DNA from: Bacteroidales bacterium
GTDB lineage: Bacteria; Bacteroidota; Bacteroidia; Bacteroidales; UBA932
DNA length: 64,000 bases
Reading direction: 5' to 3'
Assembly: GCA_017554305.1 (NCBI GenBank)
Contig: JAFZIN010000029.1
Span: forward strand, 1 to 64,000
Part shown: positions 4,431-38,959 of the stretch, piece by piece
How the letters are laid out: each line of letters starts with the position of its first letter
Numbering within the stretch: position 1 is the first letter of the stretch
Notes under the pieces: model-generated
Databases searched by the model: none
Told to the model about the DNA's origin: nothing
Seen by the model: only the letters and a program-made list of their open reading frames with translations
Position numbers and translations under genes: made by a program

Positions 4431-4459
4431 GTGAGATTTTTCACTTCAAATATTAGTCT
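4431..4459 (+). promoter_or_regulatory. 29-nt conserved upstream element, copy 1
   Basis: The segment beginning GTGAGATTTTTCACTTC and ending AATATTAGTCT matches, with one substitution in 29, the minus strand at 31897-31925 upstream of the second FISUMP cassette. Both copies are followed 20-25 nt later by a G-tract and about 120 nt later by a paralogous peptide gene. Conservation far above the flanking DNA suggests a promoter or operator. It has no clear TAnnTTTG box, so the regulator and the start point are unknown. Confidence 0.6.
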
Positions 4460-4479: not shown

Positions 4480-4486
4480 GGGGGGG
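4480..4486 (+). repeat. G7 homopolymer in the leader of peptide cassette 1
   Basis: Seven G residues lie 20 nt after the conserved element. The second cassette has ten at the same relative place (31862-31871). Homopolymer tracts near promoters can vary in length by slippage; variation here is inferred from the two lengths, not observed within one locus. Confidence 0.6.
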
Positions 4487-4604
4487 TGTAAGTATCTTTT
4501 AATCAACAATTTACATATTAATAGCTGCGACCTTCAAAAGAAGTGCCGCCGTCTTTCGTGTGCCCACGCGTCAAACCGAATCTAATCATACAAAACATAA
4601 GCTT

Positions 4605-4742
4605 ATGAAAATCAAGTACAAAAAAGAACTTTATGATGCTCCCTCGATGCACATTTTCGAGGTGAAGCTCGAGGGCGTAATTGCCGCCAGTTTACCAGCC
4701 CCCCAGTGGAACAAACCGTTTAATGACGAAGAAGATTGGTAA
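4605..4742 (+). CDS. Short peptide of cassette 1 ([YF]xAP...EG family)
   Basis: 45 residues, starting MKIKYKKELYDAPSMHIFEV. It is clearly related to the peptide at 31598-31738: both read KELYxAPSxxxFEVKxEGVI, then a variable acidic and aromatic tail (here ending NDEEDW). A more distant relative is at 34572-34706. No signal peptide or membrane segment is visible. The lipoprotein gene follows after 17 nt with a strong AGGAGGA site, and that junction is also conserved in cassette 2. Such peptides are common as hypothetical proteins before Bacteroidota surface lipoproteins. I know no proven function. A leader peptide, a partner of the lipoprotein or a modified peptide precursor are all possible. 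Confidence 0.7.
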   Translation: MKIKYKKELYDAPSMHIFEVKLEGVIAASLPAPQWNKPFNDEEDW

Positions 4743-4759: not shown

Positions 4760-6136
4760 ATGAAAAAGACAATTATCATTTTAAGTGCTATTCTTGCATT
4801 CGTTGCCTGCAATCAGGAAATTATTCAGCCGGAAGACACCTCGACGGTTTTCAATATTACTATTACCCGAGAGGGTGACACCAAGGCCGTGAAGTCAGCT
4901 TGGGAAGACGGAGACGTGGTTTACTTGTTCTTCTCCACTGTGGCCGCTCCTAACTATGTCAAGTTATCTTATTCCGGCGGCAGCTGGACCAGCACCAAAG
5001 TTGGAACATTCGGAATTACAGTAGACGGCACAATGACTGCCATCTACCTGCCTTACGGCAATAGTGAGACGGTATCAGCAGACGGTACCAACTTCAAGTT
5101 TGGCAACACCTACACCAGCTATTATCTCAAAGCCGAAAAGGCTGCTTATACCGTTTCCGGCGGCGTGGTCAGCGGCACTCTGAACATGGTGACCCCCGAT
5201 GGTCTTGTGCAGTTTGCCATGCCTCTTACCAATGGCACCACCCAATTCTTCCGTGAGACGGCTGGCGCCTATACACTGAGTGAAGCCCACCTTACGCCCT
5301 TTGCGTTTGCTTCCGTCGCGGCAGACGGTACAATATCCAACGAGACGGGTTACAGCGCCGGCGATCCCATCACCGGTTACTTATACGGAGAAGGGAACGC
5401 CCGCACCATCAACTTCAGCGGCATCCTCGGAACCCCCGGAACGGCCACGGATTATGCTTTCTCCTTTGTCAACAACATGGGTACAGTCGCTACTTATGAT
5501 GATGTAACCTACACCCTTTCGGGCAATAGGACCATTGCCGCCAAGTCTGCCATCAAGTTCCCGCTCATCAGTTCATCCGCATGGAAGGTCCCGGAGCCGG
5601 AATATGTAACAGTCGGAGGCATAAAATGGGCTAAATGGAACGTAGGCGCAAGCACCCAAGAAGGTTATGGCGACTATTATGCCTGGGGGGCCATCTATCC
5701 TCAGTATAGGTATAAGGAAGATGATTACAAGGAAGGTTCCATCGGCTCAAATTTAACCACCGACAAAGATGTTGCTTACCAGAAGATGGGAACCAACTGG
5801 AGAATGCCTACCAAGGCGCAACTCGAAGAACTAGCAAAAAAAACAGATCCTTGGACATATGCACATCCTTCCACCTGGACCACCATTAACGGCGTGAATG
5901 GTCGTCTTTTCTCTCCAGATGCCGGTCACGAATCCGAAGGAAATCTGTTCCTGCCTGCTGCAGGAAGCTACCAGGGCGCTGGATTTTGGTATCTTGGCAC
6001 TTTTGGCTACTATTGGTCTTCTGCGTACAAAGAAAGCGATACAGCTAACTATCTCATATTCGACGATGATAATCATATCGACTTTGACTACATTTACCGT
6101 GAATACGGTCTTACCGTTCGCCCCGTCCATAATTAA
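4760..6136 (+). CDS. Fimbrillin-like lipoprotein with C-terminal FISUMP domain
   Basis: 458 residues from the ATG at 4760, chosen because it follows AGAGGAGGA by 7 nt and begins a standard lipoprotein signal (MKKTIIILSAILAFVAC, Cys17). Residues about 25-270 resemble the fimbrillin-family N-terminal module (FNITITREGDTKA, then WEDGDVVYLF, then TAIYLPYGN). Residues about 280-458 form a FISUMP/DUF1566-type domain: VGGIKWAKWNVGAST, MGTNWRMPTKAQLEEL, LFLPAAGSY, YYWSSAY and a final LTVRPV. This suggests a surface-exposed lipoprotein, possibly for adhesion or binding; the ligand is unknown. It is coupled to the short peptide gene 17 nt upstream and ended by the terminator at 6188. Confidence 0.8.
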   Translation: MKKTIIILSAILAFVACNQEIIQPEDTSTVFNITITREGDTKAVKSAWEDGDVVYLFFSTVAAPNYVKLSYSGGSWTSTKVGTFGITVDGTMTAIYLPYGNSETVSADGTNFKFGNTYTSYYLKAEKAAYTVSGGVVSGTLNMVTPDGLVQFAMPLTNGTTQFFRETAGAYTLSEAHLTPFAFASVAADGTISNETGYSAGDPITGYLYGEGNARTINFSGILGTPGTATDYAFSFVNNMGTVATYDDVTYTLSGNRTIAAKSAIKFPLISSSAWKVPEPEYVTVGGIKWAKWNVGASTQEGYGDYYAWGAIYPQYRYKEDDYKEGSIGSNLTTDKDVAYQKMGTNWRMPTKAQLEELAKKTDPWTYAHPSTWTTINGVNGRLFSPDAGHESEGNLFLPAAGSYQGAGFWYLGTFGYYWSSAYKESDTANYLIFDDDNHIDFDYIYREYGLTVRPVHN

Positions 6137-19554: not shown

Positions 19555-22086
19555 ATGGCAATGGAAAAGATAAAAGTCATAGTAAGCGGAGGCGGAACGG
19601 GAGGCCACATCTTCCCGGCAATCTCAATTGCTAACGGAATAAAGCAACTCTGTCCAAATGCGGAGATTCTGTTTGTTGGCGCAAGCGGAAGAATGGAGAT
19701 GGAAAAGGTACCTCAGGCAGGCTACCCTATTAAGGGTATTCCGGCAAGAGGACTCAAGAGACCTCTCTACTCTCTGGCCAATATTGGAGTTGCAATAGAT
19801 TACCTGCGCTGCCGCTCAATGGCCAAGAAGATTGTAAAGAATTTTAAGCCTAACTTTGTTGTGGGCGTGGGCGGATATGCCTCAGCAGCAGTTGTTTCTG
19901 CCGCTGCAGCATTGAAGGTTCCGGTACTGCTTCAGGAGCAGAACTCCTTTGCAGGAATAGTGAACAGAAAGAACGCCGGCAAGGCTCAGAAGATTTGCGT
20001 TGCATACGACGGAATGGAGAGATTCTTCCCAAAGGAGAAGATACTTCTTACGGGAAACCCTATACGTAAAGAGATAGTCCGCTGCACTCCTCAGATGAGA
20101 GAAGAGGGCATTAAATTCTACGGACTCAATCCTAACAAGAAGACGCTGTTTGTTGTGGGAGGCAGCCTTGGTTGCCGTACTCTCAACAACTGTATGATAA
20201 AGGCGGTGAGGGAGAAGGAAATCACAGATTTCCAGGTTATTTGGCAGTGCGGCAAGGCCTATAAAAAAGAGATAGACGAGTTTTTGAAATCTGAATCTCA
20301 TGAGTGTGTTTATTGTACAGATTTCATTAGCAGAATGGACCTTGCCTACGCCGCCGCCGATGTTGTAGTAAGCCGTGCGGGAGCGGGTACAATCTCAGAA
20401 CTCTGCGTTGCAGGAAAGTGCACCGTATTTGTTCCTTCACCTAACGTTTCAGAAGACCATCAGACACACAATGCAATGGCTCTTGTAAACAAGAACGCAG
20501 CAATGATAGTCAAAGATGTTGAGGCTGTGGAAAAGCTTATGGGTGAGGTAAAAGCGCTGCTTGCAGATGAAGATAAGATTAAACTTTTGGAGAAGAATAT
20601 TCTTACTCTTGCTAAGCCCAATGCTACTGCAGAAATTGCAAAGGAGTGCCTTAAACTCTGCGGCAAAGAGAGCCCAAAGAACTGCAGCAAGGAGAGTATT
20701 GAGGAGGTTTACTTTATTGGAATAGGCGGCATTGGAATGAGCGCCATAGCAAGGTATTACAAGAGCAAAGGTCTTAAGGTTTCCGGTTATGACAAGACCC
20801 CTAGCCCGCTTACCAAAGCGCTGGAGAGTGAGGGGATTGAGGTGCATTATGAAGATACTCCAACCCTTCTTCCTAAGAGCACAAAGAACTCCCTGGTAAT
20901 TTACACACCGGCCATACCGTCAGATCTTCAGGAACTTGTAAAGGCCAAAGAGGGCGGATATGAACTAATTAAGAGAAGCCGCGCGCTGGGTCATCTTGCA
21001 AAAGGACAGGTTTGTCTGGCAGTTAGCGGAAGCCATGGAAAGACCACAACAAGTACCCTTCTGGCCCACATTATTCAGAGCAGCGGAATGGGATGCAACG
21101 CTTTCCTTGGAGGAATTTCCAAGAACTACAACAGCAACCTTCTGCTATCAAAGAATAACGTATTGGTTGCGGAGGCGGATGAGTTTGACCGCTCATTCCA
21201 TCAGTTATATCCTCACATTGCGGTAGTTACAGCAACAGATGCAGACCATCTGGATATCTACGGAACGGTGGAGGAGATGAGAAAAGCATACGCCCAGTTT
21301 GCCTCTCAGATAGATGCAGACGGATATCTGATTGTTAAAGAGGGAGCTGTTTTGGATACCACCAACGTTAAGGCAAAACGTTTCACCTACTCTTACAGCA
21401 GCAACACTGCAGACTTCTACGCTTCTGATATAAAGCCAATAATGAAGGAGGGCAAAGAGACAGGCCTCTTCACATTCACTCTCCACACCCCTAACGGAGC
21501 AATTGAAACCTTAAGCGTTGGAGTTCCGGGTTGGGTGAACATAGAGAACGCGGTTGCCGCCTCCGCAATTGCACTGCTGCAAGGCGTTAATGAGGAGGAA
21601 CTTAAGGATGCGCTTGCATCCTTTAAGGGTGTTGTAAGAAGAATGGATATTCACGTTAACTCTCCAAAGATGGTTTACATAGATGACTATGCACATCATC
21701 CTCAGGAGATTGCAACAACAATAAGTTCCATTAGGGAGGCTTTCCCGTCCAGAAAAATGACGGCCATATTCCAGCCTCACCTCTACACCCGCACCAGAGA
21801 TTTTGCTCCGGAGTTTGCCCAGGCTTTAAGCCTTGCAGACAGAGTGATTCTGCTGGATATCTACCCTGCCAGAGAGCTTCCTATTGAGGGAGTTACATCT
21901 GAGATAATATTTGACAAAATTACGGCAACAGATAAGGTTCTGATTAAGAAAGAGGAATTGATGGCTCTTTTGAAAGAGAGAGTGGAAAAGGGAGAAGAAG
22001 ATCTTATTGTAACCTTTGGAGCCGGCAACATAGACAGATTTATAGAGCCTATAACTGAACTGATTAACAACTATTTAAAGAAGTAA
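19555..22086 (+). CDS. murG-murC: MurG-MurC fusion: lipid II synthase joined to UDP-MurNAc--L-alanine ligase
   Basis: 843 residues in one uninterrupted frame. Residues 1-about 365 are a complete MurG: GGGTGGH at 12-18, the N-terminal membrane-docking patch and the GT28 C-terminal site VVSRAGAGTISELCVAGK. Residues about 383-843 are a complete MurC: GIGGIGMS about 389-396, ATP loop GSHGKTTT at 492-499, ADHLDIYGT and DDYAHHPQEI. The joining segment (365-382) is short and polar with three cysteines. The two reactions are far apart in the pathway: MurC adds the first amino acid, MurG makes lipid II. Separate adjacent genes are usual in this phylum, so loss of a stop or start signal between them is the simplest origin. 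The ATG is 2 nt after the ftsW stop; ftsQ begins 2 nt after its stop. Confidence 0.9.
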   Translation: MAMEKIKVIVSGGGTGGHIFPAISIANGIKQLCPNAEILFVGASGRMEMEKVPQAGYPIKGIPARGLKRPLYSLANIGVAIDYLRCRSMAKKIVKNFKPNFVVGVGGYASAAVVSAAAALKVPVLLQEQNSFAGIVNRKNAGKAQKICVAYDGMERFFPKEKILLTGNPIRKEIVRCTPQMREEGIKFYGLNPNKKTLFVVGGSLGCRTLNNCMIKAVREKEITDFQVIWQCGKAYKKEIDEFLKSESHECVYCTDFISRMDLAYAAADVVVSRAGAGTISELCVAGKCTVFVPSPNVSEDHQTHNAMALVNKNAAMIVKDVEAVEKLMGEVKALLADEDKIKLLEKNILTLAKPNATAEIAKECLKLCGKESPKNCSKESIEEVYFIGIGGIGMSAIARYYKSKGLKVSGYDKTPSPLTKALESEGIEVHYEDTPTLLPKSTKNSLVIYTPAIPSDLQELVKAKEGGYELIKRSRALGHLAKGQVCLAVSGSHGKTTTSTLLAHIIQSSGMGCNAFLGGISKNYNSNLLLSKNNVLVAEADEFDRSFHQLYPHIAVVTATDADHLDIYGTVEEMRKAYAQFASQIDADGYLIVKEGAVLDTTNVKAKRFTYSYSSNTADFYASDIKPIMKEGKETGLFTFTLHTPNGAIETLSVGVPGWVNIENAVAASAIALLQGVNEEELKDALASFKGVVRRMDIHVNSPKMVYIDDYAHHPQEIATTISSIREAFPSRKMTAIFQPHLYTRTRDFAPEFAQALSLADRVILLDIYPARELPIEGVTSEIIFDKITATDKVLIKKEELMALLKERVEKGEEDLIVTFGAGNIDRFIEPITELINNYLKK

Positions 22087-22088
22087 AC

Positions 22089-22856
22089 GTGAACAGGGTT
22101 TGGAAAAATACTTTGGTGACTGCACTCTACGTGGTACTTGCCGCTGTGGCAATTGCCTACTTCTACTTTGCCTCCCAGTTAAGAGGCAAAGGAAAGAGCG
22201 GTGAGGTGTGCAAAGCCATCAAGGTCACTCTGTTAGACAGTTCTTTGAACAAGTTTGTGACAAAGGAGGAGATTGTTCAGATTATAGAGAGATTTAACGG
22301 AGAAGTTATCGGGAAGAAGACAGACAGTATTCCTCTGCTGCAGATAGAGAATATGCTCAACCATCGCAGTGTAGTGAAAGAGAGTCAGATACATATTACT
22401 CACGATGGTCTTATGGAAGTATCTATCCGCCAGAGAAGACCGGTAATAAGAATAGAGACGGCAGAGGGAGGATTCTATGTAGATGAGACATCTTACATAT
22501 TCCCGCTCATCCCTAACTACACCTCCTATGTGCCTGTTATTACGGGAAATATCCCAATAACAAAAGATTCTCTCAACTCCATAAATCAGATGCTCTCTTT
22601 GGGATTGTTCTTAGAGCAGAATCCTTTCTGGAACGCCCAGGTAGAGCAGATATACTTTAATCCTCAGGGAGAGGTTGAACTCTGCACAAGAGTTGGAAAA
22701 GAGAGGATTATACTTGGAGACCTCAGCAACCTCAGTGAGAAGTTCTCCAAACTTTACTCATACTACAAGGGAGTTGTTCCTAAGGTAGGATGGGACAAAT
22801 ATGAGACTGTTAACCTGAAATATAAAGGACAGATAGTCTGCACAAAAAAGAGATAA
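22089..22856 (+). CDS. ftsQ: FtsQ/DivIB-like division protein
   Basis: 255 residues with a GTG start 2 nt after the murG-murC stop; no ATG is near the beginning of the membrane segment. One membrane helix (about 9-28, LVTALYVVLAAVAIAYFYFA) is followed by a POTRA-like region (FVTKEEIVQIIE, ESQIHITHDGLMEVSIRQRRPVIRI) and a beta-rich domain with YVDETSYIFPL. It links FtsL and partners in the septal complex. Identity is weak in sequence but firm by position and topology. Confidence 0.85.
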   Translation: MNRVWKNTLVTALYVVLAAVAIAYFYFASQLRGKGKSGEVCKAIKVTLLDSSLNKFVTKEEIVQIIERFNGEVIGKKTDSIPLLQIENMLNHRSVVKESQIHITHDGLMEVSIRQRRPVIRIETAEGGFYVDETSYIFPLIPNYTSYVPVITGNIPITKDSLNSINQMLSLGLFLEQNPFWNAQVEQIYFNPQGEVELCTRVGKERIILGDLSNLSEKFSKLYSYYKGVVPKVGWDKYETVNLKYKGQIVCTKKR

Positions 22857-22898
22857 CACACTTAACCATAAAAATTAACCAGTAACAATAAAAACAAT

Positions 22899-24314
22899 AT
22901 GAAAGATTTGATCGCTGCCATCGATCTCGGTACCACAAAAGTAGTTGCCGCAGTCGGAAAGAAAACTCCCCAGGGAGTGAAGGTGGTTGCCTACGCAGAG
23001 GCGCCGTCCAGAGGAATAAAACGCGGAAGAGTAGAAAACGTAAAGCTTGCCAATCAGGCACTTAAAGACGCTCTCACAAGAGTGGAGAGTAAGTTAGACG
23101 GACAAAGAATCAAGAACGCGTTTGTAGGAATTGCAGGCCAGGATATCAGATGTATCTCCACCGCACCGTTCCAGACTCAGAGAAAGAACTTCAATGAGAT
23201 GATTACTCAGGAGGAGATTCAGGAGATTACAGACAACACCTACAACACCGTTTTGGAAGACGGCTACAAAGTAATCTACTCCGTTCCTCAGTCCTTCAAT
23301 GTAGACAACTATATGAGCGTTTCCGAGCCTATAGGAATGATTGGACGTAACATTGTTGCAAAGTACAAACTCTTTGCAGGAAAGGAGAACTCCAGAAGAA
23401 TGATAGAGAGCACTTTAGGACTCTCACACATCAAACCTATAGAGATAGTTATAGAGCCTATTGCCTCTGCAAAGGCAGTGCTTACAGAGGATGAGATGGA
23501 GGTGGGCAGCATTATGGTAGACATAGGAGGCGGCACCACAGATGTGATTGTTTACCATCACAACATTATAAGATATGCCGGTATTATTCCGTTTGGAGGA
23601 AACATCATTACGGAAGATATCTGCTCTGGCTGCGGCATATCACAAAAGAATGCAGAATACATTAAGACTCACTACGGTTGCTGCTTCTCCGATTACGCAG
23701 AGGCGGGCAAGAAGATTGTGCTTCCATCTGTTGGAGGAACAAGCGGAAAGGAGATTCAGATAAAGACTCTCTCCAAAATTATCCAGGCCCGTATGGAAGA
23801 GATTCTTGAGGCTGTATGCTGGCACGTAGAACAGAGTGGATTTAAAGATGTTATCCGCAGCGGTATGGTTCTTACCGGAGGCGGTGCAAAGATGGGAAAC
23901 ATTACCAACCTTGCCAATTATGTTACTGGTTATGAGGCAAGAGTGGCTACCCCTAATGCATTCTCTATTGACCCTGCTTCTTCAGAGGCAGCTAAAGATG
24001 CAACATCTTCAACGGCAGTTGGTATGCTCATTTACGCATTCCAGAAGATGGATGAAGAGGGAGTATTCTTCCCGGATTGTTTGGAAGATGCAACCGTTAA
24101 GGTTGAGGCAACCGTTACCCCTAAGAAAGAGGAAGATAGACTGTTTTCAGATGAGGGCATTGATCCAAAGATGGAGACTGTAAAAGTTGAGAAGAACGAG
24201 AAGGGAAATAATACAGGCAGAAAGGGCAGAGGATTGTTTGACCGTTTTAAGAGCGTAAAGATTAAGAACGTTTTGGACGGAACGGGACTTTTTGATAACA
24301 ATGACGAGGTTTAA
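22899..24314 (+). CDS. ftsA: Cell division protein FtsA
   Basis: 471 residues. Actin-like ATPase with phosphate 1 loop AIDLGTTKVVAAVG at 6-19, the 1C insertion region, phosphate 2 MVDIGGGTTDVIVYH and adenosine loop MVLTGGGAKMGNI. The tail after residue 400 is charged and ends in a stretch (KGRGLFDRFKSVKIKNVLDG) that may form the membrane-binding amphipathic helix, followed by an acidic end. It anchors FtsZ to the membrane. 42 nt separate it from ftsQ. Confidence 0.94.
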   Translation: MKDLIAAIDLGTTKVVAAVGKKTPQGVKVVAYAEAPSRGIKRGRVENVKLANQALKDALTRVESKLDGQRIKNAFVGIAGQDIRCISTAPFQTQRKNFNEMITQEEIQEITDNTYNTVLEDGYKVIYSVPQSFNVDNYMSVSEPIGMIGRNIVAKYKLFAGKENSRRMIESTLGLSHIKPIEIVIEPIASAKAVLTEDEMEVGSIMVDIGGGTTDVIVYHHNIIRYAGIIPFGGNIITEDICSGCGISQKNAEYIKTHYGCCFSDYAEAGKKIVLPSVGGTSGKEIQIKTLSKIIQARMEEILEAVCWHVEQSGFKDVIRSGMVLTGGGAKMGNITNLANYVTGYEARVATPNAFSIDPASSEAAKDATSSTAVGMLIYAFQKMDEEGVFFPDCLEDATVKVEATVTPKKEEDRLFSDEGIDPKMETVKVEKNEKGNNTGRKGRGLFDRFKSVKIKNVLDGTGLFDNNDEV

Positions 24315-24326
24315 AAGATTTGCACT

Positions 24327-25658
24327 ATGGAACTTAGGGACGATAATTTTAATGACTATCCGTTGGAGTTTCCTCAAAGCCGCTCCATTATAAAGGTGAT
24401 TGGAGTTGGCGGCGGAGGCTGTAACGTTGTTGCAGAAATTTACAAGACAGGACTCAAGGATGTAGACCTGATGATTTGCAACACAGATAATCAAGCTCTT
24501 AATAGCAACCCCGTAAATGAGAAAATCCGTCTTGGAACCCAGGGTTTGGGAGCGGGTCTTAACCCTAAGAAGGGAAGAGATTCTGCCATAGCATCCAGGG
24601 AGGAGATTATCCGTTCACTGGAGGGCAACATAGAGATGGTCTTTATAACCGCCTGTCTTGGAGGAGGTACCGGAACCGGTGCAGCACCTGTTATTGCAGA
24701 GATTGCAAAGAGTATGAACAAACTCGTTGTGGGTGTTGTTACCATTCCGTTCAGAGATGAGGGATCTGAGTTTATGAAGAGAGCTATGGGTGGTCTTAAT
24801 GAACTCAAAAAGCACGTAGACTCCCTGCTTATCATAGATAATCAGAAGATTTATGATGAGTATGGAGATCTGCCTATGAAGATGGGCTTTAAGAAAGCAA
24901 ATGATGTTCTTGTTACCGCCGTAAAGAGTATATCTGAAGTGGTTACTAAGGGAGGTGGTATCAATGTGGATATGAATGACGTCCGCATGATTATGGAGAA
25001 CAGCGGTATGGCCATTATGGGTATAGGCCACGCAAAGGGAGAAGGCAGAGCAGAGAAAGCCGTAGAAATGGCCTTCAACTCCCCTCTTCTGAATGACTGT
25101 GACTTAAAGACTTCTAAAGGCGCTTTGCTCTGCATCACCTGCTCAGATGAGAAGGTGACTATGGCAGAACTGCGTCAGGCTGTAGAACACGTTAATAGTT
25201 TTACCGGTTCTCCTAACAAGTTCAAGAGAGGTATTATCAATGACCCTTCTTTGGATGATGAGGTATTCGTTACCATCATAGCAACAGGTTTTGAAGTTCT
25301 CAATCTGCCTAATATTCTGGATGATTCAATCATTATACCTGATGAGTTGGCAGAAAACGGAAGTATAGACAAGGTAGTTTGGACCCCTACTCCGGAACCA
25401 AAGAAAAAAGAGATAGAGCCAATCATTCCTGCAATGCCGGACAAACCAATAAGAAGAACGGGAACCAACCGTCCGGTTTTGGTTACGGAAGATGAAAATG
25501 AAATTATAGAACTGGAAAATGTTCCAGCTTACATAAGAAAGAGCAGAAAGAACAACGGCGGAATACAGACAGACATTGCCGCTTTCTCCATTACAAATAC
25601 AACAGAGGGGCAGGCTATCACACCTAACAACAGATACCTGCACCAGACTCAGGATTAA
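24327..25658 (+). CDS. ftsZ: Cell division GTPase FtsZ
   Basis: 443 residues. N-terminal GVGGGGCNVV, tubulin signature GGGTGTG at 112-118, T7 loop region with NVDMNDVRMIM. After the GTPase and C-terminal domains comes a variable linker and a conserved peptide-like VPAYIRKS near residue 408, the usual FtsA-binding type. An extra tail of about 35 residues follows it (NNGGIQTDIAAF onward), so this peptide is not terminal. Tail extensions occur in Bacteroidota FtsZ. It is 12 nt after ftsA; gltX starts 6 nt after its stop. Confidence 0.95.
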   Translation: MELRDDNFNDYPLEFPQSRSIIKVIGVGGGGCNVVAEIYKTGLKDVDLMICNTDNQALNSNPVNEKIRLGTQGLGAGLNPKKGRDSAIASREEIIRSLEGNIEMVFITACLGGGTGTGAAPVIAEIAKSMNKLVVGVVTIPFRDEGSEFMKRAMGGLNELKKHVDSLLIIDNQKIYDEYGDLPMKMGFKKANDVLVTAVKSISEVVTKGGGINVDMNDVRMIMENSGMAIMGIGHAKGEGRAEKAVEMAFNSPLLNDCDLKTSKGALLCITCSDEKVTMAELRQAVEHVNSFTGSPNKFKRGIINDPSLDDEVFVTIIATGFEVLNLPNILDDSIIIPDELAENGSIDKVVWTPTPEPKKKEIEPIIPAMPDKPIRRTGTNRPVLVTEDENEIIELENVPAYIRKSRKNNGGIQTDIAAFSITNTTEGQAITPNNRYLHQTQD

Positions 25659-25664
25659 CATATT

Positions 25665-27455
25665 ATGGCAAGAGAAACAAGAGTTAGATTTGCGCCGAGT
25701 CCTACCGGACCGCTGCACATGGGAGGAGTTAGAACAGCACTTTACAACTACCTCTTTGCAAAACAGAACAACGGAAAATTTATCCTCCGAATAGAGGATA
25801 CAGATTCTCAGAGATTTGTTCCGGGTGCGGAAGCATACATACTGGAGGCTCTTCAGTGGTGCGGTATAGTTCCGGATGAGGGTATTGTACAACAGGGTGT
25901 AAATGAGGACGGTACGCCACATTACGTACTGGCGGAGGAGAAGAGTGAAAAGAACCCTCACGCTCCTTACCGTCAGAGCCAGCGCAAACCTCTCTACAGG
26001 CAGTACGCAGAAGAGCTTGTAAGTAAAGGCTTTGCATACTATGCCTTTGATTCCGCAGAGGAACTCAATCAAAAGAGAGCGGAGGCAGAGGCCAATAAGC
26101 AGACCTTCATCTACAACTACGAGTCTCGCAAACAGCTGCGCAACTCCCTTACTCTCAGCAAGGAAGAGACAGAGCGTTTAATAAATACAACCAGCAACTG
26201 GACAATAAGATTCAAGATTCCGGAGAATGAGACCGTTAAGATGAACGATCTTATTCGCGGAGAGATGGAGGTAGATACCAATACTCTGGATGATAAAGTT
26301 CTTTGGAAGGCTGCAGACCAGCTCCCTACTTACCACCTGGCAAACATTGTAGATGACCACCTTATGGAGATTACGGAGGTTATCAGAGGAGCAGAGTGGC
26401 TCCCTTCACTTCCTCTCCACTATCTGATTTACAAAGCATTCGGTTGGGAAGATACTATGCCTCGTTTTGCTCACCTGAGCCTTCTTCTTAAGCCGGACGG
26501 CAAGGGAAAACTCAGCAAGAGAGACGGTGACCGTTTAGGTTTCCCGGTATTCCCTCTTAAGTGGGTAAATCCAGAAACTCAGGAGGTTTCAAGAGGTTAC
26601 AGAGAAGACGGTTACTACCCTGAGGCCTTTGTAAATCTGCTTGCACTCCTGGGTTGGAACCCAGGTACGGAGCAGGAGATTTTCACTTTAGAAGAGTTGA
26701 TTCCTGTATTCTCTTTAGATAGAGTTATCAAATCCGGAGCAAAGTTTAATGTTGAAAAGGCAAAGTGGTTTAACGAACAGTTCTTAAGAAGAAGAACGGC
26801 CGCTCAGCTGGCAAAGGAGTTTGCACCTACGGTTAAGGAAAAGACCGGCAGAGAGTACTCGCAACTCTTTCTGGAAGAGGTTTGTACGCTCATCAAAGAG
26901 CGCGCTCACTTCTCCACTGAGTTCTGGGATATAAGCAAGGCCTTGTTCCTCTGCCCTGCAGGTGCCGCCCAGGTAACTGCAGCAGCACAGCCGGATACTC
27001 CAGTTGCAGTTTATAATTTGGAAGACGTTAAAAAGTTCTGCACAGAAGAGAACAAAGCACACGTTGCAAAACTCCTTAACCTCATAAAAGAGAGCACCTT
27101 CCCAACATTCACAGATAACCAGGATGAGCGCACCGCCCTCCTCGCCACCGCTCAAGCAGCCAACGCATCCGCCACCCAGGCAGCAAATGCATCCACAGCC
27201 CCGGCATCAACTGATGCAAACCAGCAGTCCGCCGCACCTCAGCCCGCAACTTACAAAGAGCTCTGCTGCAGCAAGATAGAGGAGTTACTTACCGGCTACA
27301 TCAAAGCCAAGGAGTGGAAGATGGGACAGGTAATGAACACCTTGCGCCTCTTCTTTACCGGCAACACCAGAGGCCTGGGTATCTCAGATATCATTTACTT
27401 CATTGGTAAGGAGTGTACAATTAAGAGAATAGAGGCCGGCCTAAAAGCCTGCTAA
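25665..27455 (+). CDS. gltX: Glutamate--tRNA ligase with an alanine-rich insertion
   Basis: 596 residues, longer than the usual 480-510. Class I motifs: HMGG (18-21, HIGH-type) in FAPSPTGPLHMGG, and KLSKR (282-286, KMSKS-type). The catalytic core matches the Bacteroidota form, including FPLKWVNPET. A low-complexity insertion at about 489-528 (repeated AQAANAS, then Gln/Ala/Pro) sits in the C-terminal anticodon-binding region before YKELCCSKIEELL. It charges tRNA-Glu. The 6-nt gap after ftsZ suggests cotranscription with the end of the division cluster. Confidence 0.93.
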   Translation: MARETRVRFAPSPTGPLHMGGVRTALYNYLFAKQNNGKFILRIEDTDSQRFVPGAEAYILEALQWCGIVPDEGIVQQGVNEDGTPHYVLAEEKSEKNPHAPYRQSQRKPLYRQYAEELVSKGFAYYAFDSAEELNQKRAEAEANKQTFIYNYESRKQLRNSLTLSKEETERLINTTSNWTIRFKIPENETVKMNDLIRGEMEVDTNTLDDKVLWKAADQLPTYHLANIVDDHLMEITEVIRGAEWLPSLPLHYLIYKAFGWEDTMPRFAHLSLLLKPDGKGKLSKRDGDRLGFPVFPLKWVNPETQEVSRGYREDGYYPEAFVNLLALLGWNPGTEQEIFTLEELIPVFSLDRVIKSGAKFNVEKAKWFNEQFLRRRTAAQLAKEFAPTVKEKTGREYSQLFLEEVCTLIKERAHFSTEFWDISKALFLCPAGAAQVTAAAQPDTPVAVYNLEDVKKFCTEENKAHVAKLLNLIKESTFPTFTDNQDERTALLATAQAANASATQAANASTAPASTDANQQSAAPQPATYKELCCSKIEELLTGYIKAKEWKMGQVMNTLRLFFTGNTRGLGISDIIYFIGKECTIKRIEAGLKAC

Positions 27456-27607
27456 CCAGCCGCAACCAAAGTTCATACAACTAACAAACAATCATTCAAG
27501 AGAGAAAGGGAAAAAGAAAAAGTAGAAACAGCAAAGAAGGAAGAATTATTGTTAATAGTTGTATAACATTGATGTTAATGAATTTATAAATTTTAAAACA
27601 TAGAAAT

Positions 27608-28381
27608 ATGAAAACAAAGAACGTCATCATAGCACTTATTGCCCTGCTGATAGCCCTCCCGGCAACCGGACAGAGAAGCATCAAAAGGCTCAGCTTTAAT
27701 GGAGTATCTCTCAACAACAATGAAGAGTACTTTGTAAAACGCTTAACCAGAAAGGGTTGGAAAGAGACCTCCAGAGACAAAGAGAAGATTATGATGAGCG
27801 GCAAGGTGAGCGGTCTGCCTTCAACCATTGCAATAGTACCGGGCAAAGGCACAGATAACCAGACCATTAAGCAGGTTATCCTCAGCACCGCAGAAGACAC
27901 GCCGGAGGCTACCAAACTTAAGTATGACGTTCTAAAAGACTGGATCATAGACAACTATGACATCCCTGCAGTAGATAATCTCAAAGATGAAGAGGGAGAT
28001 GTCTCCTGCTATTGGGGTTCACTGTCGGGAGGAGAAAGAGATAACTACCGTAACCACATCACACTCACCACGGTAGACAACAGTGTTGCGGTTGCAACAT
28101 TCAACTTCAGAGAGACCGCAACAGAGGCTACTATGGAATCTATCGGCGATGCTGTTGAGGGATTCGGTCAGAAAGTTTCCAACACAACAGACAAAGTAAA
28201 ACAGGCCGGCAAGACTGTAAAAGACAATGTAGCAGGCAAATCCAAAGACGTAGCCCACAAGACCGGAGATGCCCTTGAGGACTCCGGAGACTGGATTAAG
28301 AGAACCGCAAGCAAAGCAGCCAAGGGAGCAAAAGACGGCTGGCGCGCATTCAAAAACGCCTTCAAGAGTAACAATAAATGA
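27608..28381 (+). CDS. Secreted protein of unknown function with a Lys/Ala-rich helical tail
   Basis: 257 residues. The signal peptide MKTKNVIIALIALLIALPATGQ ends near residue 22 with no lipobox, so the product is probably periplasmic or secreted. Residues 23-175 look like a compact mixed domain (FNGVSLNNNEEYFVKRLTRK, then MSGKVSGLPSTIAIVP) that I do not recognise. Residues about 178-257 form a polar amphipathic helical stretch rich in Lys, Asp, Ala and Gly (GKTVKDNVAGKSKDVAHKTG), like LEA or apolipoprotein repeats. Its TGA overlaps the start of the PAP2 gene by 4 nt (ATGA), so the two are translationally coupled. Confidence 0.7.
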   Translation: MKTKNVIIALIALLIALPATGQRSIKRLSFNGVSLNNNEEYFVKRLTRKGWKETSRDKEKIMMSGKVSGLPSTIAIVPGKGTDNQTIKQVILSTAEDTPEATKLKYDVLKDWIIDNYDIPAVDNLKDEEGDVSCYWGSLSGGERDNYRNHITLTTVDNSVAVATFNFRETATEATMESIGDAVEGFGQKVSNTTDKVKQAGKTVKDNVAGKSKDVAHKTGDALEDSGDWIKRTASKAAKGAKDGWRAFKNAFKSNNK

Positions 28382-29736
28382 AAAACATAAGGATAGACAG
28401 AATAATTTCCTTAATTGCCATTGCTGTAATCCTCTTCACAGCTGCAACCGGCTGTGCACCAAAGAGAGCCAACATCATTGAAAAGGTGAGAACAGCAATC
28501 ATAGAGCAATGGAAACTCCCGTTTGATTCTCTCTATCTGCAAAAGAACCAACTGCCGGATGCCGTTGTCTATCTTCCCGCCCCGCCGGATACCACCTCTG
28601 AAATCTTCAAAGAGGACTACAACCGTTGGCTCTGGGGCAAAACCATCCGCCCTACTCCGCGCGGAAAGCAGGCCAGCATTGAGTCCCTTTACGGCATTGT
28701 AAGAATGTGTACCATCTACTCTGAGGTACTCGGCTTAAAGATTGATTCTCAAACAACTCCGGCCATCTACCGCTTTATGCTCTACGTTGGAGAAACCGCC
28801 CATCAGAGCACTGCCCACGCAAAGGAAACATATATGCGCATCCGTCCGTTTGCCCGTGCCAACGAGAAGGTTTGGGGAGAGTTTGACTATGACGATCTTC
28901 GCAACAACGGCTCCTACCCATCCGGCCATACCGCCCTCGGCTGGGCCACAGCGCTTGCACTTGTTGAGGTTGCCCCGCAGCTCCAAGACACCATTCTCAG
29001 AAGAGGTTACCAGTACGGAGAGAGCCGCGTCATAGTGGGCGCCCACTGGCAGAGCGATGTCTATGCCGGCTACCATGTTGCCTCCGCCGCCGTTGCCGCA
29101 ATGCACAACAACCCCCGCTTCATCTCCCACCTCAAAGCCGCCCAACAGGAATACAACCGCCTCACTGCCAACCGGAACCGCCTCACTGCCAGCACCTCCA
29201 ACCACTCCTCATCCAGCACCCTCAGCACCTCCGCCTCTTCCAGCCAGAACGCCCCTATCTTTCATCTTCCTCACGATAGTAAAATTCTGGACACCCTCCT
29301 CATAAAGCACAACAATCCAACTTTGTACTCAGGCACTCCTATCATCAAAGAAACCCCAACAGAGAATATATCCTTGCAAACATTCTCAGAGATTAAGAAC
29401 GCCATTCTCAATGAATTGAGGATACCAACACCTCCAATTATCAAAGTATTTGCAATGGCAAACGATGCACTGCAACAAAAAAATTATGACGTCATTTCTC
29501 CCGATGTAGGATGGGCTATGGCCCTGATTTATGCAGAAATAGAACCAGAAATTCAAGATGTCATTCTAAAAGTAGGATGGATGTTTGGCAGCCCGGAGAT
29601 CAACTCAAACATCAATCAAAATGCCAACCAGGACCTAATCCAGGCCCGCCGCATCCTCGCCTCCGCCATTGTAGCCTCCCTCCACACCAACCCCAAATTC
29701 CAAACCCTCCTTTCCCAAGCCAAATCATCCCACTAG
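28378..29736 (+). CDS. PAP2-family acid phosphatase lipoprotein with a degenerate second domain copy
   Basis: 452 residues. Lipobox ATGC (Cys26). Residues about 35-265 are a class A non-specific acid phosphatase-like PAP2 domain with all motifs: K149-X6-R156-P157, PSGH at 181-184 and S216-R217-X5-H223-X3-D227. Residues about 320-452 repeat the same domain in decayed form: VGWAMALIYAEIEPEIQDVIL aligns with LGWATALALVEVAPQLQDTIL, and ASAIVASLHTNPKF aligns with ASAAVAAMHNNPRF, but the PSGH and SR..H motifs are lost. The linker (265-320) is Ser/Thr/Asn-rich. Likely role: periplasmic phosphate ester hydrolysis by the first domain; the second may be structural. Confidence 0.85.
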   Translation: MKNIRIDRIISLIAIAVILFTAATGCAPKRANIIEKVRTAIIEQWKLPFDSLYLQKNQLPDAVVYLPAPPDTTSEIFKEDYNRWLWGKTIRPTPRGKQASIESLYGIVRMCTIYSEVLGLKIDSQTTPAIYRFMLYVGETAHQSTAHAKETYMRIRPFARANEKVWGEFDYDDLRNNGSYPSGHTALGWATALALVEVAPQLQDTILRRGYQYGESRVIVGAHWQSDVYAGYHVASAAVAAMHNNPRFISHLKAAQQEYNRLTANRNRLTASTSNHSSSSTLSTSASSSQNAPIFHLPHDSKILDTLLIKHNNPTLYSGTPIIKETPTENISLQTFSEIKNAILNELRIPTPPIIKVFAMANDALQQKNYDVISPDVGWAMALIYAEIEPEIQDVILKVGWMFGSPEINSNINQNANQDLIQARRILASAIVASLHTNPKFQTLLSQAKSSH

Positions 29737-29812
29737 AGCTTCCACTCCTACCCTCCCTACTCCCTCACCTTCTAACCATCCAGCAAACAATAAAATACTT
29801 TTCATAAGCACG

Positions 29813-29939
29813 ACTTTTGAACAAAATTCTTCGGATAATCATAATCTTGCTCAGATGTATGTATAACCAAGAAAATACCCAAATTCAGCGCACTTTTTTG
29901 AACGAATATTTGCAAAATCTCACACTTTTTTGAACGAAT
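29813..29939. repeat. Direct repeats CACTTTTTTGAACGAAT
   Basis: Exact 17-bp copies at 29891-29907 and 29923-29939, with starts 32 bp apart (three helical turns). A weaker copy, ACTTTTGAACAAAAT, lies at 29813-29827. The arrangement could be an operator or the scar of a mobile element; the flanks do not show which. Confidence 0.6.
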
Positions 29940-30016
29940 CAAAGCCCTTGGCATCACCTGCCTCACCCCCGCCATCTAATCAACCTCTTTCCTCCGCGAT
30001 AGTTCCCCTCACCCCA

Positions 30017-30053
30017 ACAAAAAAAGCAGGTCTCACCCTCAATGGATGAGACC
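30017..30053 (-). terminator. Terminator of cassette 2 lipoprotein
   Basis: On the minus strand, GGTCTCA and TGAGACC form a 7-bp perfect stem around an 11-nt loop, followed by CTGC and a T-run. It lies 30 nt after the lipoprotein stop. Confidence 0.75.
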
Positions 30054-30082
30054 CAACTTATTCAATTATTGTTATAACATTT

Positions 30083-31579
30083 TTACTCAACAACTCGAGC
30101 CAACCGAACCGAACACCCCGTGTACCGGTTTGTGTAAGAACCTGTATTAACACTACTATTGGTAAAGTAAATATACTCTGCCCAGTTATCGCCACTAGAA
30201 CTACCAGTCCAGTATACGCCATATGCATCAGGAGAGCTAACTGTCGTACCAGACCGATAGCCAGTTACAGGCAGGAAAACACAGCCTAAAGATTCAAACG
30301 TAGCCCAATCGCTGCCTGCATACTCCGAGCCTGTGTAGCTGTCAGGATAGATGACAAGACCTAACTTGCCGTTAACACTCTGACCTAAAGTGTAGCTATG
30401 TCCTTTGCCTGTGCCTCCGTTGACACTGCGGGTATTCAACATATGTACCCACTCAGCCTTGGTCAGTGTTCTCCAGACGGAACCAATAGTAGTACCCCAG
30501 TCGCTCTTCAATGCTTCACCGGATCCAGTGCCGTAATCGCTGTTTGTTTTAGAGTTGCTGATACCATACAAAGCGGCACCCGTCCAAGAGCTTGAAGCGC
30601 CAACCCATCCGAAGAGGTCGACGGTACCGGTGCCTGAAATTGTACCGTTGCCATTGATGCTTGTATTGCCAGAGTTATTGCCGATATAGTCCCATTGGTG
30701 ATCAGCAAAGTGCCAGTTCCACGACGTACCATCGTAAGTGGCTTGCAGATTGCCGGGAGCAAAGGTCACCTTCTTACCACTTCCGTTGACGGTGAAAACG
30801 CAAAGAAGTTCCGGCATCTTTATAGTGCTCTGGTAATATTTGCCAGAAGCAAATGTAACGTTAGCCTTAGAATATTCATAAATCTTACTGTCGCTGCCAT
30901 GGGCGGTGAAGCTCACAGTCTTGCTGGAAACGGCTGGTAGGGCCGCGTAGAGTGTGCTAGTGGCATCAGATGGGGTGATGACATAGTCTTGACCGTCGAT
31001 GGAGACTGTCAGAGGTTTCACGTCAATTATAGCTGAGCCGTCAGAGTTTTTTACGGTGAACTTAAAGATGGCAAACTGCGGAACGGGCTGGGTAGTTACC
31101 GTCAGGCCTGGAGTAGTGGTCTGGATAGTACCTGCGCCAACGCGGACATCCAAATTGGCATTGAGCGTGCCGTCCTGTGCTGCCAAAAGCGTTGCAGCAT
31201 CCTTTACCCCGCCGGGGTTAGACTTAGCTGCCGAGCGTGGATAAACCAAAGTACAGGCAGTGTTATTTGGCGTGCCGGCTTCAACGGTGAACTCGATGGT
31301 GGCCGCGCCTGTGCCACCATCCACAGCTGTGATTCTGGCATCCGCCTCGTATTCTGTTTCATCTTTTGTATAGAAAATGGCGATATGCTCATTCACAGCC
31401 CATTGAGCCACAATCTTGTTGGTGCCTTCACTAACGGCCTTGGAGATGGCGCTCTTAGGTGCCAGCTGGGCTGTAATGGTAATACCATCAGTCTCTTCAA
31501 CCTTCTGGACATTCATTTCATTCTTGCTGCAGGCTGCTAATGCAAGAGCCATTGCAATAAATCCAAATACTTTCTTCAT
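30083..31579 (-). CDS. Fimbrillin-like lipoprotein with C-terminal FISUMP-type domain (cassette 2)
   Basis: 498 residues. Lipoprotein signal MKKVFGFIAMALALAAC (Cys17). Residues about 25-250 are a fimbrillin-type module (DGITITAQLAPKSAISKA, then WAVNEHIAIFY, then TACTLVYPRSA). From about 265 the protein reads FTVNGSGKKVTFAPGNLQA, DHQWDYIGNN, WRTLTKAEWVHMLNTR, FLPVTGYRSG, YWTGSS and ends in CSVRLARVVE, a Bacteroidota FISUMP-like module that differs from that of cassette 1. It is probably displayed on the cell surface. A paralogous short peptide gene lies 18 nt upstream with a conserved AGGAGGAT junction. Confidence 0.78.
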   Translation of the reverse strand: MKKVFGFIAMALALAACSKNEMNVQKVEETDGITITAQLAPKSAISKAVSEGTNKIVAQWAVNEHIAIFYTKDETEYEADARITAVDGGTGAATIEFTVEAGTPNNTACTLVYPRSAAKSNPGGVKDAATLLAAQDGTLNANLDVRVGAGTIQTTTPGLTVTTQPVPQFAIFKFTVKNSDGSAIIDVKPLTVSIDGQDYVITPSDATSTLYAALPAVSSKTVSFTAHGSDSKIYEYSKANVTFASGKYYQSTIKMPELLCVFTVNGSGKKVTFAPGNLQATYDGTSWNWHFADHQWDYIGNNSGNTSINGNGTISGTGTVDLFGWVGASSSWTGAALYGISNSKTNSDYGTGSGEALKSDWGTTIGSVWRTLTKAEWVHMLNTRSVNGGTGKGHSYTLGQSVNGKLGLVIYPDSYTGSEYAGSDWATFESLGCVFLPVTGYRSGTTVSSPDAYGVYWTGSSSGDNWAEYIYFTNSSVNTGSYTNRYTGCSVRLARVVE

Positions 31580-31597
31580 AATCGTATCCTCCTTATT

Positions 31598-31738
31598 TTA
31601 TGAATTGAATGGATCATCTCCGCTCTCATAGTCAGAAGGGTCATTCAGCGGACTTTGGCAAATAACGCCTTCTGTTTTCACCTCGAACATCTGTATCGAG
31701 GGTGCTTCGTAAAGCTCTTTATTGTTTTTGATTTCCAT
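31598..31738 (-). CDS. Short peptide of cassette 2 ([YF]xAP...EG family)
   Basis: 46 residues starting MEIKNNKELYEAPSIQMFEV, then KTEGVICQS and an acidic tail (DDPFNS). The core aligns residue by residue with the peptide at 4605-4742, and the DNA is also similar, so they are recent duplicates. An in-frame ATG two codons upstream (31744) is an alternative start. The tail has one cysteine (CQS) where cassette 1 has Ala. The distance to the following lipoprotein (18 nt) and its ribosome-binding site match cassette 1. No function is known to me; secretion is not evident. Confidence 0.7.
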   Translation of the reverse strand: MEIKNNKELYEAPSIQMFEVKTEGVICQSPLNDPSDYESGDDPFNS

Positions 31739-31861
31739 AAGCATATAGTTTTTTTGTTTTTAGTTAACAATGTGTTAGCGAAACAGCATAGCAAAGCACG
31801 CGTAAGCCAAAACGGCCACGCGGACAAAACTGTATAATTGTTTGATAATTAAATTGTTGTA

Positions 31862-31871
31862 CCCCCCCCCC
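31862..31871 (-). repeat. G10 homopolymer (C10 on plus) in the leader of cassette 2
   Basis: Ten consecutive C on the plus strand, so ten G in the direction of transcription, at the position equivalent to the G7 at 4480-4486. Tracts of this length are prone to slippage, and assembly length may itself be uncertain. Confidence 0.65.
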
Positions 31872-31896
31872 GTTAACAAAAGAAGGGGCTTCAAAC

Positions 31897-31925
31897 AGAC
31901 TAATATTTGAAGTGAAGAATCTCAC
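31897..31925 (-). promoter_or_regulatory. 29-nt conserved upstream element, copy 2
   Basis: On the minus strand it begins GTGAGATTCTTCACTTC and ends AATATTAGTCT, identical to 4431-4459 except for one T to C change. It has the same orientation relative to the peptide gene and G-tract, which argues for a shared control site of the two cassettes. Confidence 0.6.
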
Positions 31926-31998
31926 GCCAAAAGGTTATGCAAACGCAAATTTAATTAAAACTGCCCTAAGTTGTACCAACTACTTTAGTTAAGACAGC

Positions 31999-32026
31999 AA
32001 AAAAGGCCCGCCAACCCGGCGAGCCT
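31999..32026 (-). terminator. Terminator of cassette 3 lipoprotein
   Basis: On the minus strand AGGCTCGCC and GGCGGGCCT form a 9-bp stem with one mismatch around AACCC/GGGTT, followed by six T. It lies 30 nt past the stop of the gene ending at 32056. Confidence 0.75.
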
Positions 32027-32055
32027 CATATACTTTACAAATTTTTATTAAAACA

Positions 32056-34572: not shown

Positions 34573-34706
34573 TACAGTTCTCCTCCATCCATTAAATCTT
34601 CCCAGAAATTCGTTATAAGAGCTTGGCTTGCCGTAAACAAAAGGGAGCCCTCACTTGAAATACCAACAATTTCAGAAAATGGTGCTATGTAAAACTGCTT
34701 CTTCAT
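34572..34706 (-). CDS. Short peptide of cassette 3 (divergent [YF]xAP...EG family)
   Basis: 44 residues starting MKKQFYIAPFSEIVGISSEG, then a hydrophobic tail ending MDGGEL. It keeps the [YF]xAP core and the EG about ten residues later seen in cassettes 1 and 2, but little else. Its TAA (34572-34574) overlaps the lipoprotein ATG by one base, so the two are translationally coupled. A promoter-like box lies at 34794. The common place before three different lipoproteins is the main reason to call it a real gene. Confidence 0.6.
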   Translation of the reverse strand: MKKQFYIAPFSEIVGISSEGSLLFTASQALITNFWEDLMDGGEL

Positions 34707-34793
34707 TACTCTATCACTCTTCAAATAGTAGTTGTATATCTAGCAATAAATCAAAAATCTTTCCAAATGCCTTCCGTTTTTGGGAAAGGGCGG

Positions 34794-34801
34794 CAAAGAT
34801 A
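34794..34801 (-). promoter_or_regulatory. Predicted -7 element (TATCTTTG) of cassette 3
   Basis: On the minus strand TATCTTTG fits TAnnTTTG; a weak -33 (ACTTT) lies 19 nt upstream. The leader to the peptide ATG at 34706 would be about 80 nt. The 29-nt element and G-tract of the other cassettes are absent here. Confidence 0.45.
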
Positions 34802-34855
34802 TAAAAATTTTGAATATAAAAGTAAATTTTACTTAAATGTAACTATCACGTTTAA

Positions 34856-34880
34856 ACGGGAGATAGAAAAGCTCTCCCGC
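34856..34880 (-). terminator. Possible terminator after the C_GCAxxG gene
   Basis: CGGGAGA (34857-34863) and TCTCCCG (34873-34879) form a 7-bp stem around a 9-nt loop, about 50 nt beyond the stop of the minus-strand gene at 34932. The following T-run is only three bases, so termination is uncertain. Confidence 0.35.
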
Positions 34881-34931
34881 ATAAAAGTAAGAAAAACTGC
34901 ATTTTAGGGACTAGAAAGCGGTTATATGCGG

Positions 34932-35321
34932 TTAGAGAGAGGATTCTGTGAGGAGGACGGCGTGGCGGACGCAGTTGTCACAGGAGCAGAGGGGCTGTTT
35001 GGTATCTGCACCTTTGATTTCTCTGCAAGTGAGGGCGCCCACTTTGGCCTTGAAGGCGTTGGAGAGCTCTCTGGTGATGGCGGTGGTTGGTTTTTCTGAG
35101 TTATTGAGCAGGCCTACGACCATTGCAGCACCGCAAAGCGCTCCGCAGGTACCGTTCATTGAGCCTATCCCGGCTCCGAATCCGGAACCGAGGCTGAGAA
35201 GCTGCTCTTTGGTCAACTGCCGAGCCTTTTCAATCTCCGGGGCAAACTCCAGGAGGACTGCCTGGCAACAATTCAATCCAAGTTCATGTTTTACCTCAAC
35301 TGAGTGATCCGCTCTGTCCAT
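34932..35321 (-). CDS. C_GCAxxG_C_C family redox-type protein
   Basis: 129 residues from the ATG at 35321; a TTG at 35348 would add nine. The family pattern is clear: LNCCQAVLLEF, GSGFGAGIGSMNGTCGALCGAAMVVGLL, then Cys in LTCREIKG and the pair SCDNCV near the end. Members are small cysteine-rich proteins, often near oxidoreductases and thought to bind metal or act in redox chemistry; the function is not settled. It stands alone, downstream of the permease on the same strand, and is flanked by a 15-bp inverted repeat. Confidence 0.8.
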   Translation of the reverse strand: MDRADHSVEVKHELGLNCCQAVLLEFAPEIEKARQLTKEQLLSLGSGFGAGIGSMNGTCGALCGAAMVVGLLNNSEKPTTAITRELSNAFKAKVGALTCREIKGADTKQPLCSCDNCVRHAVLLTESSL

Positions 35322-36732: not shown

Positions 36733-36740
36733 GTGTTTTT

Positions 36741-38958: not shown

Positions 38959-38959
38959 A

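Follow-up and report, generated by a model that had tools for sequence, protein, structure and literature searches.

Short YxxP peptides paired with lipoproteins in Bacteroidales: candidate RRE-dependent precursors of modified peptides, with poly-G tracts ahead of some units

Three short peptides, their lipoprotein partners, and their relatives

The window analyzed here, a 64,000-nucleotide stretch of Bacteroidales DNA, is contig 28 of a 1.82-Mb genome that is assembled in 32 contigs and estimated to be 89% complete. It carries three short open reading frames (ORFs), each directly ahead of a lipoprotein gene, which an earlier note made from the sequence had described as paralogous peptides with a shared core. 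The ORFs lie where that note had placed them: peptide 1 (MKIKYKKELYDAPSMHIFEVKLEGVIAASLPAPQWNKPFNDEEDW; 45 amino acids [aa]) at 4605 to 4742 on the plus strand, peptide 2 (MEIKNNKELYEAPSIQMFEVKTEGVICQSPLNDPSDYESGDDPFNS; 46 aa) at 31598 to 31738 on the minus strand, and peptide 3 (MKKQFYIAPFSEIVGISSEGSLLFTASQALITNFWEDLMDGGEL; 44 aa) at 34572 to 34706 on the minus strand. We class all three as precursor-like. The residues YxAP and EG of the proposed core are unchanged in all three. The lipoprotein partners are encoded at 4760 to 6136 (plus strand; lipobox FVAC and a FISUMP-like C terminus that scores below the cutoff), 30083 to 31579 (minus strand; lipobox LAAC), and 32056 to 34572 (minus strand; 838 aa, with an LFSC lipobox and repeated CYxxMFxxC-type units); the lipobox was called by script for partners 1 and 2 and by eye for partner 3. 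The intergenic distances that the note had given, 17, 18, and −1 nucleotides (nt), are correct, with the start of the third lipoprotein gene sharing 1 nt with the stop of its peptide gene, and AGGAGGA does occur at the junctions of pairs 1 and 2.

A profile of 44 relatives scored peptides 1, 2, and 3 at 51.2, 68.4, and 19.7 bits, respectively; it holds none of the window peptides, and its members came from searches seeded with them, so it is not wholly independent. The best control scores for the same profile were 7.0 bits over 20 mononucleotide-shuffled versions of the window and 4.3 bits in the reversed window. Peptide 3 is a distant member of the family, and the shuffle controls, together with the synonymous pattern given below, rule out a reading of the window peptides as chance ORFs. 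No NCBIfam model matched any of the three at an E value of 1, and Pfam returned just two matches for them, both at chance level and below the cutoff. The same was true of relatives: the peptide at L164 matched nothing in Pfam or NCBIfam, and those at L191 and L193 matched nothing in NCBIfam. No Rfam family exceeded its gathering threshold anywhere in the window. The predicted structure of peptide 2 alone, computed with 16 relatives, showed no confident fold (pLDDT, 67; pTM, 0.19), as would be expected of a precursor, although such a prediction is not proof of one.

The earlier note had called the lipoproteins fimbrillin-like. The three window partners reached no fimbrillin model above its cutoff and one relative, the partner at L193, exceeded that of Mfa_like_1 (fimbrillin-like); the label fits these proteins only loosely. 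Being lipoproteins and having that one relative's match are what they have in common with the Bacteroidales fimbrillins (Mfa_like_1, FimA type). A single PDB match of the lipoprotein profile, to Gp15 (E = 0.019), was taken as chance.

Searching the source genome with a profile of the three window peptides, as the earlier note had advised, returned 14 places at E values up to 10. One of these (L017), within a frame of 323 aa, was discarded as a chance match, leaving 13 copies, one of them truncated by a contig end. For 11 of the 12 visible downstream genes, the product is a lipobox protein (8 by script and 3 by eye); the remaining copy is followed by a 1009-aa protein without a lipobox and then by a lipoprotein. 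Partners in this genome range from 280 to 1009 aa. Over all fetched loci, the family comprises 109 nonredundant copies. The 13 named loci at which the peptide was found belong to Bacteroidales-type assemblies, and 7 of the 13 titles mention the rumen, reticulum, or omasum.

The two-gene unit that the note had postulated is conserved across this larger set. An ORF of at least 120 aa begins at −40 to +140 nt after 94 of the 109 peptide genes, with a median gap of 16.5 nt and with 70 of the 94 falling within −5 to 30 nt. A lipobox-like N terminus was found in 84 of these 94 ORFs versus 8 of the 41 ORFs in the window that reach 200 aa. Peptide similarity and lipoprotein similarity are correlated (Mantel r = 0.476; 0 of 2,000 permutations; n = 91). 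No large ORF directly follows six of the seven distant copies in genome G149 or either of the two in G057. One locus, L069 (contig 24 of G017, 21500 to 41499), holds ten peptide genes in 20 kb with a lipoprotein-like ORF after each, an array that is a possible source of cassette exchange.

The peptides share a layout of two parts. YxxP is present in 109 of 109, a count to be read with the fact that the search profile itself favors this motif; Ser or Thr occupies the position Tyr+19 in 99 of 109, and Cys occupies Tyr+17 in 65 of 109. The tail beyond Tyr+20 averages 17.6 residues with a mean net charge of −4.0; in peptide 1, Ser29 is the last Ser, Thr, or Tyr. The note had made its reading depend on a synonymous pattern of change in related genomes, and such a pattern was found: over 22 close pairs, pooled dN/dS was 0.16 across the N-terminal part and 0.18 across the tail. 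Synonymous change exceeded nonsynonymous change in most close pairs (for L011/L041, pS was 0.25 and pN was 0.02); the excess was missing in L096/L097, L098/L097, L049/L066, and L076/L087. By this sequence measure, the family is under purifying selection. The family has these features of a precursor: a short conserved coding gene, a conserved leader-like half, and a variable tail.

Candidate maturation genes in the source genome and its relatives

The YxxP motif close to a lysine-rich N terminus resembles that of lasso peptide leaders, which prompted a search for the lasso B2 peptidase as well as PqqD. PqqD exceeded its cutoff in 32 of 39 genomes of the genus, including the source genome, whose protein scored 65 bits against a cutoff of 23.4. 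The sole PDB match of this protein was TfuB1 (E = 0.017), a lasso leader-binding protein. The B2 peptidase (PF13471) exceeded its cutoff in none of the 39 genomes; weak partial matches occurred in 14, with none in the source genome.

The PqqD gene of the source genome lies on contig 15 (L160) in a compact run with genes for a kinase-like protein (290 aa), an S24-like protease, and an ABC exporter, and this cassette is unlinked to every precursor found in that genome. The kinase-like protein has an HPr-kinase-like P loop and matches models only below their curated cutoffs, the best weak matches being ScmC and HprK_rel_A. In pairing a kinase-like protein with PqqD, the cassette resembles the SynChlorMet and HPr-rel-A systems of NCBIfam; unlike in those systems, however, the kinase matches here fall far below the equivalog cutoffs. 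The S24-like protease scored below its cutoff in the source genome and three relatives and above it at L164. The four-gene cassette also occurs in G017, G021, and G015. The kinase, PqqD, and ABC genes were seen in G012 and G023, where the protease frame was not listed, and G024 has a longer ORF in the place of the kinase, followed by PqqD and ABC genes.

In relatives, the peptide and the cassette lie side by side. The gene run in G013 reads peptide, lipoprotein, PqqD, kinase-like protein, and S24-like protein, and that at L164 reads peptide, lipoprotein, PqqD, kinase, and S24. Seven further genomes of the family (L191 to L197) carry the peptide and its partner gene beside three or four cassette genes, in the following orders: peptide-lipoprotein-peptide-lipoprotein-kinase-S24-PqqD-ABC (L191); PqqD-nucleotidyltransferase (NTase)-ABC-peptide-lipoprotein-kinase-S24 (L192); PqqD-NTase-ABC-kinase-unassigned ORF-peptide-partner, with the protease position unassigned (L193); peptide, a 391-nt gap, then lipoprotein-kinase-S24-PqqD-NTase-ABC (L194); peptide-lipoprotein-PqqD-kinase-S24, with no ABC gene seen (L195); and kinase-S24-PqqD-ABC-peptide-partner (L196 and L197). 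A Pfam search of ten proteins from L191 to L194 and L196 placed NTP_transf_5 and ABC above their cutoffs and S24 just below. The locus L198 has a kinase gene without a peptide or PqqD. Linkage of the peptide to a putative RiPP recognition element (RRE) of the PqqD type is therefore present in relatives and absent in the source genome; the cassette itself contains both the exporter, whose ABC domain exceeds its cutoff, and the S24-like peptidase.

The peptide and the kinase also co-occur across genomes. Within the family (n = 149), the kinase was found in 41 of 45 peptide-bearing genomes versus 18 of 104 others (P = 5 × 10^−18) and, with the genus of the source genome left out, in 33 of 37 versus 17 of 100 (P = 6 × 10^−15); these P values are optimistic because related genomes were counted as independent. 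The peptide-bearing family genomes that lack the kinase are G258, G264, G281, and G352, and 18 family genomes with the kinase show no peptide at the cutoff. In a sample of 198 genomes from the order, the kinase matched at an E value below 1e−50 in 10 genomes, including the source, and at 1e−15 in 19; strong matches were found in four of the five other peptide-bearing genomes (the exception being G204) versus 5 of the remaining 192. Among the matches listed, at least eight peptide-kinase pairs from seven genomes are no more than 4 kb apart on one strand, where about 0.26 would be expected. As for PqqD, at the cutoffs applied to both, the peptide was found in none of the seven genomes of the genus without a PqqD match versus 21 of the 32 with one (P = 0.002).

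Nine kinase loci were inspected at the level of the order. At L184, the peptide, with no lipoprotein after it, adjoins the kinase in the run peptide-kinase-unassigned ORF-PqqD-NTase-ABC, where the ORF occupying the peptidase place matched nothing in Pfam. L188 has a small YxxP ORF with a lipoprotein 3.7 kb away, and no peptide was recognized in view at the other seven. In two genomes, G015 and G023 (loci L163 and L165), genes for a radical SAM protein and PqqD follow a Cys-rich YxxP peptide of the family, which likens the family to the radical SAM/SPASM RiPP systems that use PqqD; unlike in those systems, the radical SAM protein of G015 scores under the TIGR04463 cutoff, and none is linked to the window peptides. 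The two runs (L165, 6235 to 9963; L163, 1195 to 4935) also include a lipoprotein with a PKD domain and adjoin ORFs that resemble TonB receptors by eye.

Poly-G tracts upstream of peptide genes

A tract of 7 G residues lies at 4480 to 4486 on the plus strand, 118 nt before the ATG of peptide 1, and one of 10 G residues lies at 31862 to 31871 on the minus strand, 123 nt before the ATG of peptide 2 at 31738; the region upstream of peptide 3 has no G tract. These are the only runs of at least 7 G in the window, a number that is not unusual by itself (it was equaled in 57 of 100 shuffles). Each tract lies 3′ of a 20-nt element common to units 1 and 2 (4440 to 4459, plus strand; 31897 to 31916, minus strand), which the earlier note had overlooked and whose two exact matches in the window compare with a mean of 0.00 in 100 shuffles. 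Upstream of both tracts, we also found a putative operator-like dyad, GTGA-N6-TCAC (4431 to 4444, plus strand; 31912 to 31925, minus strand), which resembles a CRP/FNR-type site. The tract of unit 1 is followed by a promoter-like motif, TGTAAGTATCTTTTAATCAACAATTTACATATTA (4487 to 4520, plus strand), in a form common to most tract-bearing units; the best form of the motif is TRTAAC-N3-CTTTTAATCA-N5-TTACATA, and it may serve as a promoter.

In the source genome, eight units (the two in the window and six others) stand behind a poly-G tract of 7 to 10 nt and the promoter-like motif, and seven of the nine runs of at least 8 G lie 53 to 130 nt ahead of peptide starts. A 9-G tract on contig 15 (L019, 29224 to 29232), with a related motif, lies 114 nt before a lipoprotein gene that has no peptide, and an 8-G run on contig 30 (L032, 16362 to 16369) falls within a long coding frame, where it possibly reflects translational phase variation or chance. 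Runs of at least 8 G precede peptides in five of five cases in G017 and in two of eight in G021. Among the 107 units whose upstream sequence extends to 250 nt or more, 21 have a tract of at least 7 G at 40 to 200 nt, versus 1, 4, and 6 for equivalent runs of C, A, and T; the 21 come from the source genome (8), G017 (6), G021 (3), three named relatives, and one distant genome. Predicted hairpins in the 5′ leaders lie near the leader start, and no claim is built on them because only two of the seven leaders folded gave z-scores beyond −2.

Of 11 homologous pairs whose right flanks are alike, 9 differ in tract length and 1 has an indel within the 40 nt that follow; with one assembly per species, these differences come from comparisons of species or paralogs only. 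The tracts are kept at a similar place even where their flanks have diverged. Upstream regions and coding units have swapped partners: loci L074 and L104 have the upstream region in common and not the peptide, and L003 and L062 have the peptide in common and not the upstream region. The differences in tract length suggest phase variation, and we infer that the element is a phase-variable promoter.

The tracts could instead have arisen by chance or be neutral remnants of a duplication of the DNA upstream, which we consider unlikely. Because the upstream regions of a group are homologous, the tracts are not independent; runs of at least 8 G also occur in coding DNA and elsewhere (on contig 30 of the source genome and several times in other genomes); and six of the eight such runs in G021 precede no peptide that we found. 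Against this, the runs of the source genome and G017 mostly or wholly precede peptides, the tracts keep their place beside diverged flanks, and other homopolymers of that length are rarer at the same distance.

A poly-G promoter switch has parallels elsewhere. Promoter phase variation by homopolymer tracts is known from Bordetella fim and Neisseria porA and opc, while Bacteroidales are known mainly for invertible promoters and DNA inversions. As in fim and porA/opc, a poly-G/C run of varying length lies by a promoter-like motif ahead of surface protein genes; unlike in those systems, the tract here precedes a precursor-like peptide and a lipoprotein. Tracts without the family peptide also exist: G005 has four (L107, L108, L109, and L113) of 9 to 10 G with a related motif and no detected peptide, each with a dyad just upstream whose arms seem by eye to covary, and for three of the four, lipoprotein-like ORFs start 552 to 836 nt later. 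A distant member of the order, G093 (L126), has a peptide gene with an 8-G run 187 nt upstream.

A proposed precursor pathway and competing readings

The earlier note had left the peptide as a leader, a partner, or the precursor of a modified peptide. The gene runs of relatives, with their RRE, kinase-like, peptidase-like, and exporter genes, favor the last of these, and we draw the precursor reading from these neighborhoods and from the co-occurrence with the kinase: the peptide is most likely an RRE-recognized precursor whose product is modified and exported, with a leader and accessory genes like those of lasso peptides. In relatives, the features of an RRE-dependent RiPP system that a sequence can show appear together. 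We envisage that the peptide is translated and cotranscribed with its lipoprotein. Its N-terminal half (K..Y-x-x-P...[IV][CA]-x-[S/T]) would act as a leader bound through YxxP by the PqqD-type RRE; the HPr-kinase-like P-loop enzyme, joined in some genomes by the NTP_transf_5 protein, would modify the peptide; the S24/signal-peptidase-like protease would then cut off the leader near the conserved Ser/Thr at Tyr+19; and the short acidic tail would leave through the ABC transporter. In the source genome, the contig 15 cassette would serve the roughly 13 dispersed precursors in trans. The lipoprotein, which is probably an adhesin of the cell surface or a fimbrillin-like protein, may act together with the released peptide, and slippage of mispaired strands at the poly-G tract would probably make expression on/off or graded. 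Taken whole, with RRE-dependent RiPP-like precursors, a cassette acting in trans, a lipoprotein partnership, and poly-G switching, we regard this proposal as probable.

Known clusters offer a template for several of these steps. Lasso RREs are reported to recognize YxxP (PMC12710340), the kinase PadeK phosphorylates a lasso precursor, and PsmN attaches a hexose to the phosphorylated residue (PMC9266682, PMC7533575). As described, the paeninodin and pseudomycoidin clusters share with the loci studied here a YxxP leader, a separate PqqD-type RRE (B1), and an HPr-like kinase (PMC9266682, PMC7533575, PMC12710340), as well as a nucleotidyltransferase, which in our set is found in some genomes. Unlike PadeK-modified lasso precursors, however, the peptides here have no common C-terminal Ser, and unlike in lasso clusters, they come with a regular lipoprotein partner and with many precursors in trans of one cassette. 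An ABC exporter is a feature of lasso clusters, as it is of the cassettes described here.

A precursor, an adjoining envelope protein, and an exporter are also the usual layout of bacteriocin-type systems. The peptide might thus be bacteriocin-like and the lipoprotein its immunity protein or receptor rather than a partner in adhesion, and the codivergence of the two genes would fit. We think this unlikely: the partners in the source genome are large, one relative's partner exceeds the Mfa_like_1 cutoff, and about 13 different pairs occupy a single genome. Less probable still is a regulatory leader, whose translation would couple to or attenuate that of the lipoprotein and whose sequence would matter for that alone. 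The position of the peptide directly ahead of the lipoprotein gene, the short gaps with one overlapping pair in the window, and the hairpins in some 5′ leaders would suit such a role, but constraint at the protein level spans head and tail, YxxP and the Ser/Thr are conserved, linkage and co-occurrence with the RRE, kinase-like, peptidase-like, and exporter genes are strong, and some copies (L184 and the distant ones) have no lipoprotein after them. We did not file the family under lasso peptides in the strict sense, a very improbable assignment despite the YxxP leader, the PqqD-type protein, and kinase and nucleotidyltransferase neighbors like those described for the paeninodin and pseudomycoidin clusters, because no B2 peptidase reached its cutoff in the genus and the cassettes read showed no B2 gene or cyclase, with an S24-like protease in its stead.

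Returning to the RRE-dependent precursor reading, we put forward a bolder form of it tentatively, as something possible and rather doubtful: one cassette would mature many precursors, each peptide would be loaded onto or recognized by its own lipoprotein, and the poly-G promoters would yield a phase-variable repertoire of peptide-decorated adhesins, an undescribed peptide class of Bacteroidales. Among the literature entries listed, titles and the opening parts of abstracts disclosed no poly-G switch in Bacteroidales and no peptide-lipoprotein-cassette system of this kind. Should the precursor reading prove correct, a large family of small proteins in gut and rumen Bacteroidales, left unnamed by Pfam and NCBIfam in the cases tried, would gain a function, such peptides would be tied to lipoproteins of the surface, and homopolymer switching would be added for the order. 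Each step can be tested directly with the gene runs found in relatives.

Elsewhere in the window, the ORF at 19555 to 22086 combines MurG-like and Mur ligase domains, and that at 41913 to 43835 combines an alkaline phosphatase with a GDSL lipase domain.
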